The notes under the pieces are model-generated. The model was not told the origin of the DNA. It searched no databases and worked only from the letters and a program-made list of their open reading frames with translations. DNA of 64,000 nt from Streptomyces sp. NP160 (GTDB taxonomy: Bacteria; Actinomycetota; Actinomycetes; Actinomycetales; Quadrisphaeraceae), in NCBI RefSeq assembly GCF_006335115.1, contig NZ_VDMJ01000010.1, forward strand, positions 1 through 64,000, given 5' to 3'. Positions 5,000 through 36,036 of this stretch are shown here, in pieces; position 1 is the stretch's first letter, and each line of letters opens with the position of its first letter. A program made the position numbers and the translations under genes.

Positions 5000-6655
5000 A
5001 TGTCGAGCACCGCCGTGTCGAGCACCGCCACTGCCAGCCGGGTCCCCCTGTGGACCCGGGGTGACACCAACGCCTTCTTCGGGCTGGCGTTCAACATCCT
5101 CGTCAACGTGCTCACCCTGACGGGGCTCATGATCGCCGTCGTCGGGCTCGCCGCCGACGACGTGCTCGGCACGGTGCTGCCCGCCATCGGCGTCGCGATG
5201 GTGCTCGGCAACGTCTTCTACACGGTCCTGGCGCTCCGGCTGGCCAAGCGCGAGGGCCGCTCGGACGTCACGGCGCTGCCGTACGGGCCGAGCGTGCCGC
5301 ACATGTTCATCGTCGTCTTCGTCATCATGCTGCCCATCGCCCTGGCGACCGGCGACCCCGTGAGGGCGTGGGAGGCGGGCCTGGCCTGGGCGTTCGTCAT
5401 CGGGATCATCGTGCTCATCGGCGCGTTCGTGGGGCCGTGGATCCGCCGCGCCACCCCGCGCGCGGCCATGCTCGGCACCCTGGCGGGCATCTCCCTGACC
5501 TTCATCGCCATGCGGCCCGCCGCCCAGATCTGGGAGGCCGCCTGGATCGGGCTGCCGGTGCTGGCGGTCATCCTCATCGGCTTCGTCGCCGGGGTGCGTC
5601 TGCCGGGCGGGGTGCCCGTCGGGCTGGCGGCGCTGCTGCTCGGCACGGCCATCGGCTGGATCGGCGGGTACATGTCCGTGCCGGACGTCACCGCCGCCGC
5701 CCGGGACATCGCCCTCGCCGTGCCCCACCAGCGCGTCGACCTGCTGCTCGCCGGGCTGTCCGACCTCGCCCCGCTGCTCGCCACCGCCATCCCCCTGGGC
5801 GTCTACAACTTCACCGAGGCCATGAGCAACGTGGAGTCCGCCGCGGCTGCCGGTGACGACTACGACCTGCGCAGCGTGCTCCTCGCCGACGGCGCGGGCG
5901 CCGTGGTGGGCGCGGCGCTCGGGTCCCCGTTCCCCCCGGCCGTCTACATCGGGCACCCCGGTTGGAAGGCCGCCGGCGGTCGGGTGGGGTACTCCATGGC
6001 CAGCGGCCTGGTCATCGGCCTGCTGTGCTTCCTGGGCCTCTTCGGGCTGCTGTCGGCCCTGCTGCCGCTGCCCGCCATCGTGCCGATCCTGCTCTTCATC
6101 GGTCTGCTCATCGGCGCCCAGGCCTTCCGCGCGACCCCGAGGGTCCACGCGGCGGCGGTGGTCATCGCCATCGTCCCGAACGCGGCGTCCTGGGCGTCCG
6201 GCCTGGTGGACAACGCCCTTGCCGCCGCTGGGACCAGCGCCGCCCAGGTCGGCAGCGCCGCGCTGGCCAGCGCCGGCGTCGTCTACGACGGCCTCCTCAC
6301 CCTCGGCCACGGCGCCGTGCTCGCGGGCATGGTGATGGGCTCCATCACCGTGTTCCTCATCGACCGGCGCTTCGCCGCCGCGGCGGTCGCCTGCGGGGTG
6401 GGCGCCCTGCTGAGCTTCGTCGGGCTCATCCACGCCGCCCAGGTCGGGTGGGCCGCGGCTCCCGCCGTGGCACTGGGCTACCTGCTCTTCGGCCTCGTGG
6501 CGGCGGGGTTCTGGTGGCTGCAGAAGGCCCGCGGCGAGCAGCCGACCCCGGCGCCGGAGGTGGACGAGAACGGCGACCCGGTGGTCCCGTCCCCGCGCGG
6601 CGAGGTGGACCTGACCGCCGGCCGCGACCGGGAGACGGCACCCGCCGGCCCGTGA
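5000..6655 (+). CDS. NCS2-type (xanthine/uracil-like) permease
   Basis: 551 residues with about 12-14 membrane segments, beginning WTRGDTNAFFGLAFNILVNVLTLTG. Motifs such as SDVTALPYGPSVPHMFIVVF, NFTEAMSNVESAAAAGDDYD and SPFPPAVYIGHPGWKAAGGR place it near the AzgA/NCS2 purine-pyrimidine permeases. The last about 45 residues are a charged cytoplasmic tail. It starts 10 bp after biuH behind an AGGAG site, so it is probably co-transcribed with atzF and biuH and may import biuret or a heterocyclic precursor; substrate is inferred from context only. Confidence 0.8.
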   Translation: MSSTAVSSTATASRVPLWTRGDTNAFFGLAFNILVNVLTLTGLMIAVVGLAADDVLGTVLPAIGVAMVLGNVFYTVLALRLAKREGRSDVTALPYGPSVPHMFIVVFVIMLPIALATGDPVRAWEAGLAWAFVIGIIVLIGAFVGPWIRRATPRAAMLGTLAGISLTFIAMRPAAQIWEAAWIGLPVLAVILIGFVAGVRLPGGVPVGLAALLLGTAIGWIGGYMSVPDVTAAARDIALAVPHQRVDLLLAGLSDLAPLLATAIPLGVYNFTEAMSNVESAAAAGDDYDLRSVLLADGAGAVVGAALGSPFPPAVYIGHPGWKAAGGRVGYSMASGLVIGLLCFLGLFGLLSALLPLPAIVPILLFIGLLIGAQAFRATPRVHAAAVVIAIVPNAASWASGLVDNALAAAGTSAAQVGSAALASAGVVYDGLLTLGHGAVLAGMVMGSITVFLIDRRFAAAAVACGVGALLSFVGLIHAAQVGWAAAPAVALGYLLFGLVAAGFWWLQKARGEQPTPAPEVDENGDPVVPSPRGEVDLTAGRDRETAPAGP

Positions 6656-6660
6656 CGCCG

Positions 6661-6703
6661 GGGACGCACCCTTGGATTGTGTAACAATCCAGGGGTGCGT
6701 CCC
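6661..6703 (+). promoter_or_regulatory. 43-bp palindromic operator over the eamA promoter and start
   Basis: Inverted repeat with 20-bp arms (6661-6680 and 6684-6703), 19 of 20 matched, around the 3-nt centre GTA. The core TTGTGTAACAA at 6677-6687 matches the FadR-subfamily consensus TNGTNNNACNA. AACAAT at 6683-6688 lies 6 nt before the eamA GTG, so the repeat covers both the probable -10 and the start codon. The likeliest ligand is the GntR protein encoded at 7588-8223. Confidence 0.7.
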
Positions 6704-7591
6704 GTCGTGCTCGTGCTGCTCGCCGCCGTCTGCTTCGGCTCCACCGGCACCGCGGTGGCGCTCGGCGCGTCCGGCTCCTCGCCCCTCGCGGTCGGCGCGG
6801 CCCGCATCGCCGTGGGCGGTGCGCTGCTCGCGGCGGTCGCGGCGTGGCCGCTGCTGCGGCGCGGCAGCGGCGTGACCGCTCCCTCCGCGCGGCTGGTGGG
6901 CGTCGTGGTGGTCGGGGCGGTGGGGGTGGTCGCCTACCAGCCGCTCTTCTTCGCCGGCACCCGCACCAACGGCGTCGCCGTCGGCACGGTGGTGGCGCTG
7001 GGGTCCGCACCGCTCGTCACGGGCCTGCTGGCGTGGGTGCTCACCGGCGTGCGTCCCGGTCGGCGGTGGACCGCCGCCACCGCCGTCGCCGTCGTCGGGC
7101 TGGCGCTCCTCGCCGTCAGCGCCGGCGAGGACGCCGCCGCCTCGCCGCTGGGCCTGCTGGCCTCGGTGGGAGCAGGCGCCAGCTACAGCGTCTTCGCGCT
7201 GGTCACCAAGCGCCTCCTCGACGCCGGCTGGGGCCCCACCGGCAGCGTCGGGGCGGTCTTCGGCCTGGCCGCTGTGCTGAGCGTCCCGGTGCTCCTCGTG
7301 ACCGGGGTCCCCGCCGGCGCGGGCGGCCTGGCGGTGGCCCTGTGGCTGGGAGTGGTCACCACGGCCCTGGCGTACGTGCTGTTCTCCACGGGGCTGCGGG
7401 AGCTGACCGCGCCCACCGCGGCCACGCTGACGCTCGCCGAGCCGCTCACCGCCACCCTGCTCGGCCTGCTCGTGCTCGGCGAGCACCTCACCGCGGCGCA
7501 GGCCGCCGCGCTGCTGCTGGTCGCCACGGGCCTGGCGGTCCTCGCCGCCCCCACGAGCCGTCGGCCCCGCCGTGCCAGGGTGCCGGCGTGA
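6695..7591 (+). CDS. EamA/DMT-superfamily transporter
   Basis: 298 residues with ten predicted membrane helices as two EamA repeats (VLLAAVCFGSTGTAVALG in the first; LLASVGAGASYSVFALVTKRLL in the second). Drug/metabolite transporters of this family usually export amino acids or other small metabolites; the substrate is not evident. The GTG start lies inside the right arm of a 43-bp palindrome, 6 nt after a -10-like AACAAT, predicting a leaderless and repressible message. The stop overlaps the GTG of the downstream GntR gene. Confidence 0.85.
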   Translation: MRPVVLVLLAAVCFGSTGTAVALGASGSSPLAVGAARIAVGGALLAAVAAWPLLRRGSGVTAPSARLVGVVVVGAVGVVAYQPLFFAGTRTNGVAVGTVVALGSAPLVTGLLAWVLTGVRPGRRWTAATAVAVVGLALLAVSAGEDAAASPLGLLASVGAGASYSVFALVTKRLLDAGWGPTGSVGAVFGLAAVLSVPVLLVTGVPAGAGGLAVALWLGVVTTALAYVLFSTGLRELTAPTAATLTLAEPLTATLLGLLVLGEHLTAAQAAALLLVATGLAVLAAPTSRRPRRARVPA

Positions 7592-8223
7592 GCCCGCGCC
7601 GCGCCGACGACCTGCACGCCGTGCTGCGCGACCGGGTGCTCTCCGGCGAGCTGCCCCCCGGCACGCCGCTGCGCGAGGAGGCGCTGGCCGAGGAGCACGC
7701 CGCCAGCCGGCACACCGTCCGCACCGCGCTGGCAGCCCTCGTGGCCGAGCGGCTGGCCAGCGCCGCCCCGTTCGCCGGGGTGCGGGTGGCCGCGCTGGAC
7801 GACGACGACGTGCGCTCCCTGCAGGACCTGCGCCGCGCCGTCGAGTCGGAGGCGGTCAGGCTCGCGGGCGAGCGCTGGGGCAGCGCGTGGCCCACCGAGG
7901 TGGTCGCGGTGCTGGACGAGCGCGCGGACGCCCTCGAGCGCGCCGTGCGGGGGGCAGCGGCGGAGCCGCTGGCGGTGCTGCGCGAGCACGCGGCGCTGCA
8001 CGAGGCGCTCGTGGCGGTGGCCGGGTCGCGTCGGCTCACCGAGGCGGCTGCCGCCCTGGGGGCGGAGGTGCGGCTCTTCACCGCCCACCTGCAGCTGCAC
8101 CGCTCCCCCGCTGCGCTGGCCGAGCAGCACCGCGCCTACCTGCGCGACGTCCGCGAGCGCGGGCCGGTGGCGGTGCGCGAGCACCTGGCGGCCTCGCAGG
8201 ACGCCCTGCTCAGCGGCCGGTAG
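7588..8223 (+). CDS. GntR-family regulator of the eamA operon
   Basis: 211 residues. Winged helix-turn-helix (VLRDRVLSGELPPGTPLREE, HAASRHTVRTALAALVAERL) followed by a short FCD-like helical domain (LREHAALHEALVAVAGSRRL). The GTGA overlap with eamA makes a two-gene operon, and the FadR-type palindrome over the eamA promoter is the obvious autoregulatory target. The gene end overlaps the convergent cyclase pseudogene by 14 bp. Confidence 0.88.
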   Translation: MSPRRADDLHAVLRDRVLSGELPPGTPLREEALAEEHAASRHTVRTALAALVAERLASAAPFAGVRVAALDDDDVRSLQDLRRAVESEAVRLAGERWGSAWPTEVVAVLDERADALERAVRGAAAEPLAVLREHAALHEALVAVAGSRRLTEAAAALGAEVRLFTAHLQLHRSPAALAEQHRAYLRDVRERGPVAVREHLAASQDALLSGR

Positions 8224-35551: not shown

Positions 35552-35578
35552 GGTGCCTGCGCGTCGCTGACGCCGTCC

Positions 35579-35620
35579 CGCGAGGGGCGGGTCCCGGAAC
35601 ACCGGGACCCGCCCCTCGCG
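35579..35620 (+). terminator. Hairpin downstream of qcrB
   Basis: Perfect 19-bp stem (35579-35597 with 35602-35620) around the loop AACA, 28 bp after the qcrB stop. No T-tract follows, as is common in high-GC actinobacterial terminators; it may act partly as an mRNA 3'-end barrier. Confidence 0.75.
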
Positions 35621-35784
35621 GCGTCTGGGCCCCTTCGCGCCCTCCGCAGCGCGTGCCAACCCCCGGCGTCCGGCTGCGACTGGAGGGGGGCCGGCCCAGC
35701 TCGGCCGCCGCGAGCCGGGAGAGGGTCCTCGACGCGCGTGCTCGGCCGCGAGTCCTGACCACCCCCGGCTCTAGACGCAGCCGA

Positions 35785-35887: not shown

Positions 35888-35954
35888 GGCGCACTTTCCG
35901 CGGGAAGTGCGCCACCCGGCGTCTCCTTGGCGCGCTCTCCGCGGAAAGTGCGTG
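35888..35954. repeat. Pair of related palindromic elements
   Basis: Two 26-bp copies at 35888-35913 and 35929-35954 agree at 21 of 26 positions and share the core TCTCCGCGG or TTTCCGCGG plus AAGTGCG. The first is itself palindromic, with 9-bp perfect arms GGCGCACTT/AAGTGCGCC around TCCGCGGG. They look like REP-type intergenic repeats. Confidence 0.55.
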
Positions 35955-35991: not shown

Positions 35992-36036
35992 GACGACGAG
36001 GGCCCCGGAGCGTGGTGCTCCGGGGCCCTCGTCGTC
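35992..36036 (-). terminator. Hairpin downstream of ctaF
   Basis: Perfect 20-bp stem (35992-36011 with 36017-36036) and loop GTGGT, beginning 15 bp beyond the ctaF stop on the minus strand. No U-tract. Confidence 0.75.

Follow-up and report, generated by a model that had tools for sequence, protein, structure and literature searches.

A conserved putative GntR operator at the predicted leaderless start of an eamA-gntR operon, enclosed in a lineage-specific 43-bp palindrome of Streptomyces sp. NP160

In the 64,000-nucleotide stretch of Streptomyces sp. NP160 DNA analysed here (the window), a 43-bp near-perfect palindrome at 6661–6703 separates the end of a permease gene from the body of an eamA gene that is itself followed by gntR, and this raises the question of whether the palindrome acts as a repressor site in DNA, as a hairpin in RNA read through from the permease gene, or as both. 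The geometry given in the preliminary description is confirmed at these positions: arms 6661–6680 and 6684–6703 surround the loop GTA, 19 of the 20 arm pairs are Watson-Crick, the eamA GTG (6695–6697) lies in the right arm, and the -10-like AACAAT is found in the centre at 6683–6688. Since the sole exception, T6672:G6692, is a wobble in RNA, the RNA helix has 20 pairs; RNA 6640–6720 is predicted to fold at -50.2 kcal/mol (z -5.3), a value equalled by 0 of 200 shuffles. The permease stop ends at 6655 and the left arm begins 5 nt further on. As the comparisons below bring out, the palindrome combines two things, a conserved 15-bp core and outer arms that are not conserved. The features of the locus are the following.

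5000..6655, plus strand: upstream tandem permease gene, the source of any read-through RNA (reading frame)
6661..6703, no strand: 43-bp palindrome, 20-bp arms, loop GTA (sequence and fold)
6661..6674, no strand: left outer arm, lineage-specific, 5 nt past the permease stop (comparative sites)
6675..6689, no strand: operator core GATTGTGTAACAATC, 15 bp, conserved, putatively bound by GntR (comparative sites)
6683..6688, plus strand: -10-like box AACAAT, at -12 to -7 of the predicted leaderless start (sequence; placement after PMC3898074)
6690..6703, no strand: right outer arm, lineage-specific as pairing partner, holding the first three eamA codons (comparative sites)
6695..6697, plus strand: eamA start codon GTG, with predicted transcription start at 6695 (6-nt spacing in 15 of 15 loci; SD-like 4-mer at 1 of 70 sites)
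6695..7591, plus strand: eamA, EamA-family exporter (domain match)
7588..8223, plus strand: gntR, GntR + FCD (FadR-type) regulator (Pfam domains)

The product of gntR scores above the Pfam cut-offs for both of its domains (GntR, 49.8 bits for a cut-off of 27; FCD, 37.8 bits for a cut-off of 24.3). The permease encoded at 5000–6655, a membrane-type protein of 551 aa, is matched by no Pfam model at E 0.1 and by none of NCBIfam at 0.001, and its gene directly follows genes matching allophanate hydrolase (above the cut-off) and biuret amidohydrolase (below the cut-off).

The window belongs to the genus Quadrisphaera, and the core ATTGTGTAACAAT stands 6 nt upstream of the eamA start in all six Quadrisphaera genomes compared, that is, the window's own genome and five congeners, three of which are Q. 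granulorum, Quadrisphaera sp. INWT6 and a MAG labelled Actinomycetales. The same arrangement is met when loci are chosen independently of the motif: among the 19 best loci retrieved by GntR alignment (L036–L054, 43–87% identity), 15 contain an eamA start and each of these 15 has the exact 13-bp core with the 6-nt spacing, the remaining four being three Agromyces loci without an eamA match and one locus starting inside eamA. With pattern scans added, 70 distinct core sites were assembled, in which the pattern-fetched members have identical core and spacing by construction; all 70 precede an eamA homologue, and gntR is found downstream of 62 of them within the up to 2.1 kb inspected. In two genomes found by protein (G422 and G528) the core lies 7 nt from the eamA start. 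As side observations, the 13-bp core occurs twice in tandem upstream of eamA at L205 (G1092), and the upstream frame at L118 (G002) and L120 (G003) is called as ending inside the core, which would place a stop codon within the operator.

Covariation delimits the conserved site. The pair adjoining the 13 bp is matched in 43 of 57 sites, against 36.4 expected with swapped left flanks (p 0.002), and over the 70 sites G:C is its commonest form (47) and C:G occurs in five. Pairing positions 2–20, examined over the same 57 sites, show no covariation excess relative to swapped left flanks (lowest p 0.087). A covarying pair next to the 13 bp and none beyond it argue for an operator of about 15 bp, 6675–6689, instead of the 43 bp of the earlier description. 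The likeness to the FadR consensus that had been noticed at the centre is upheld: TTGT GTA ACAA at 6677–6687 fits the FadR-subfamily operator consensus as set out in the accessible text of PMC4494728, namely TKGT/ACMA boxes with GT and AC 3 nt apart. Within its own genome the core is single-copy at up to 2 mismatches, in a search where the reversed control pattern likewise gave one match; a wider regulon was rejected on the uniqueness of the core at this tolerance.

The distribution of the core was further compared with that of the regulator. Among 366 genomes of the M. testaceum genus, 44 have the core, 49 a GntR homologue (E <= 1e-18) and 43 have both, the two lists having been matched by reading. 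The only genome of the 366 with a core and no GntR homologue (G391) has a partial gntR interrupted by a contig end, and the six genomes with GntR only comprise two with the core at 7 nt, one cut by a contig end, two weak matches (E about 3e-19) and G583, in which no TTGTNNNACAA was found in the 3.5 kb inspected. In genus g24 the association is weaker: a GntR homologue is present in 51 of 60 genomes and the exact core in six of 60, all six of which have GntR; 17 gntR loci of this genus were inspected and contained no TTGTNNNACAA site. It was also observed that in the g24 genomes G155, G298, G299, G312, G314 and G320 eamA retains the core and the GntR homologue lies far off by coordinates. Judged from these sequence comparisons, the FadR-type GntR of the operon very probably uses the core as its operator. 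A search of the open literature by the letters of the core gave, among the matches listed, no title on GntR or on an exporter operon, and no paper was found in the open literature searched either on an operator or repressor of an EamA-GntR pair in Actinobacteria or on a GntR palindromic operator at a leaderless start codon.

The constant distance between core and start codon bears on the promoter. Start codons at the 70 sites are ATG in 50 cases and GTG in 20, an SD-like 4-mer within 13 nt before the start is found at one site only, and the core-to-start spacers comprise 48 different sequences. If transcription begins at the start codon, AACAAT is placed at -12 to -7, the position of TANNNT in leaderless genes of M. 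tuberculosis according to the part of PMC3898074 that is available; the first T of TANNNT is missing, and a motif scan of 6400–7000 returned no sigma-70-like promoter. Because AACAAT stands at the end of the core and the start codon follows 6 nt on, we infer a leaderless promoter whose -10 box would be one half of the operator. With its predicted start at the GTG, the regulated mRNA itself would be unable to form the hairpin, an amendment to the earlier reading.

The outer arms, as such, are absent from all five other Quadrisphaera. In G001, which likewise has the permease (94% identical) before eamA, the permease is followed by a hairpin of its own with 23-bp arms and then by the bare core; in G005 the start region pairs with upstream sequence via an interrupted helix, and at L043 a 9-bp match offset by 4 nt was read by eye. 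When pairs are counted outward, with arms of at least 9, wobble allowed and one mismatch, arms cover the start codon at four of the 70 sites (the window, L130, L131 and L199), and a rapidly built eamA tree of 69 sequences (the short L140 being omitted), in which 22 of 66 inner branches are weakly supported, requires four separate changes to account for them. Perfect runs of at least 8 occur at two of 57 sites, against 0.02 predicted by swapped flanks. Replacing the own flanks by swapped ones makes the fold slightly worse (p 0.0065 for 57 sites, p 0.012 for 69 sites without the window), and the outer arms may therefore not be wholly neutral. Compared among orthologues for covariation, as the preliminary description had suggested, the arms drift largely uncompensated beyond position 1, despite about four gains of start-covering arms; uncompensated drift is the outcome that the description itself had named as speaking against its proposal. 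Sporadic, lineage-specific extension of this sort is the pattern expected of template switching, so that the outer arms were perhaps added by template-switch correction of an already palindromic site. In the accessible portions of the respective papers, E. coli quasipalindromes provide a described case of template switching (PMC7202029), and RNA hairpins are proposed to originate in this way (PMC8794818).

The hairpin was also placed in the context of its own genome by surveying 464 kb (the window plus 400 kb from two contigs) for hairpins with at most one mismatch and a loop of 3–10, with five first-order Markov simulations as control. Thirteen hairpins, the 6661–6703 palindrome included, have arms of at least 20, against a simulated mean of 0.0, and the palindrome therefore exceeds chance; for arms of at least 15 there are 43 hairpins against a simulated mean of 1.4. 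Zones from -5 to 60 nt past called gene ends, 5% of the bases, contain 28 of these 43, and the window has two further hairpins with 20-bp arms. Long perfect hairpins behind genes are normal in this genome, and the peculiarity of 6661–6703 is that an operator, a -10-like box and a start codon are contained in one hairpin.

Several observations on hairpins elsewhere in these genomes may be recorded here. GC-rich long perfect hairpins without U-tracts are strongly over-represented, as at 35578–35621 and 35992–36036 of the window and in the own-genome stretches L173–L192. The 23-bp hairpin arm CGTGATCATGGGCGTCCGCCACC is found at G000:C57:112803-112856 (L178, own genome) and at L007:3053-3104 (upstream of eamA in G001), its copies forming a dispersed hairpin family of the genus Quadrisphaera. 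A second recurring palindrome, GCACTTTCCGC with its complement, is intergenic and occurs at 35890–35952 of the window and near 81077, 92356 and 102362 of G000:C57.

Genes lying tightly in tandem before the core were located at the related sites. The gene in question is often of MarR type; it was found by tblastn with two of its proteins, one of which Pfam calls MarR, and its stop lies 10–19 nt before the core in 18 sites. The codon table of the window's own genome, used for gene calls, overlooked the tandem gene in many Microbacterium loci. At 22 of 57 sites, in Microbacterium loci such as L044, L128 and L145, the gene immediately before eamA-gntR belongs to the MarR family.

Could the arms, then, have been kept by selection, as a read-through lock or terminator that ends permease transcripts and hides the eamA start? 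Such a reading is, on our appraisal, rather unlikely. By its position 5 nt behind the permease stop, the strong hairpin counts as a U-tract-less gene-end hairpin and sits as other hairpins of the genome do, and the preliminary claim that a read-through hairpin would bury the eamA start agrees with the folding, in which the helix is very stable and the start codon has a predicted unpaired probability of 0.00 in read-through RNA against 0.30 in leaderless RNA. Start-covering arms, which arose about four times, are confined to the sites in tight tandem, being present at four of these 26 and at none of the 44 others (p 0.016, or 0.044 without the window), although this grouping was defined after the cases had been seen and, of its 26 sites, 18 rest on the MarR-type gene, four rest on weak gene calls and two are L118 and L120, with the called stop of the upstream frame inside the core. 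The choice of rule matters for this association: eight combinations of rule and grouping give p from 0.016 to 0.29, or from 0.044 to 0.46 once the window is left out, and 22 of the 26 tight sites have no start-covering arms; independent pairs on the tree number about 3 to 0 (median p 0.25). Own flanks beat swapped ones in a tight group of 22 sites (p 0.002; p 0.016 if the window is omitted), and the 48 remaining sites show this less clearly (p 0.076), but burial of the start in read-through RNA, taken as an unpaired probability below 0.1, is no more frequent at tight sites (five of 26) than at the others (10 of 44). The hairpin also has no U-tract: a canonical intrinsic terminator was rejected for this reason, the scan of 6400–7000 having returned 0 terminator-like sites and a hairpin without a T run. 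An Rfam family identity was likewise rejected, the four matches in the same interval all being below the gathering score. Dual insulation, through DNA and through RNA, could hypothetically operate in this lineage, the group-level tests being weak or negative. A bolder version, which strikes us as improbable, would have a read-through lock grow out of the palindromic operator at a leaderless start: template switching would extend it again and again into a hairpin that conceals the start codon in RNA arriving from upstream, and the one element would silence the gene through the protein at its promoter and through the fold of the read-through RNA. The gene's own leaderless mRNA would escape since it begins inside the right arm.

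Two further explanations concern the palindrome as DNA. If all 43 bp were one long operator, for instance for two GntR dimers, symmetry about a single centre would be natural, as would the 9-bp perfect extensions seen also in L130 and L131; but the outer arms differ or are absent in the five other Quadrisphaera, positions 2–20 are without covariation and the core alone tracks the GntR gene, which makes this very unlikely. We give still less credence to a mobile or dispersed palindromic repeat inserted on the operator: the genus does have dispersed hairpin families, including the one upstream of eamA in G001 and at G000:C57:112803, but an own-genome search with 6600–6760 found no second copy of the arms, its other matches being two to eamA coding sequence (query 113–160 and 134–160) and a third that is the opposite strand of the palindrome.

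The reading that we favour, and hold to be probable, is autorepression by a GntR dimer at the 15-bp operator over a leaderless promoter, with the outer arms as a later, lineage-specific extension. A GntR/FCD dimer on 6675–6689 would cover the -10 box beside the leaderless start and block RNA polymerase, and a ligand, perhaps an exporter substrate, would release it from the operator, the outcome being autoregulation of a two-gene export module. Extension of the arms would have placed the operator at the apex of a 20-bp hairpin that closely follows the permease stop, and permease read-through RNA would form a gene-end-type hairpin which would also bury the eamA start.

Each component of this autorepressed site has a counterpart among known systems. 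Like FadR-subfamily operators, as presented in the accessible text of PMC4494728, it has TKGT/ACMA boxes, an A/T-rich and conserved centre and a variable periphery; unlike them, it coincides with a -10 box 6 nt before the start codon and, in this strain only, is enclosed in a hairpin with 20-bp arms. With actinobacterial leaderless promoters, in the available part of PMC3898074, it shares a -10-like box 7–12 nt before the start and the lack of an SD, whereas the box here is AACAAT instead of TANNNT and the start is predicted. U-tract-less (I-shaped) gene-end hairpins are used by mycobacteria according to the accessible text of the review PMC12288462, the reference list of which includes a title stating that the mycobacterial polymerase requires a U-tract. 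The I-shaped hairpins of that review are likewise strong, within 50 nt of the stop codon and without a U-tract; the present hairpin differs in including the operator and start codon of the next operon. Finally, as with the quasipalindromes attributed to template switching in the available portions of PMC7202029 and PMC8794818, a short palindrome has been near-perfected in single lineages. As a switch the site is ordinary; what is curious, and confined to this lineage, is that it has merged with a hairpin of gene-end type.

In Quadrisphaera and Microbacteriaceae, these results assign to an uncharacterised EamA exporter and its GntR a widely conserved probable operator that apparently serves one target; a simple prediction follows, namely a leaderless start and autorepression. 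The related sites, for their part, form a series in which a short protein-binding palindrome became a long hairpin several times, and in which growth by selection and growth by mutation can be tested against each other.
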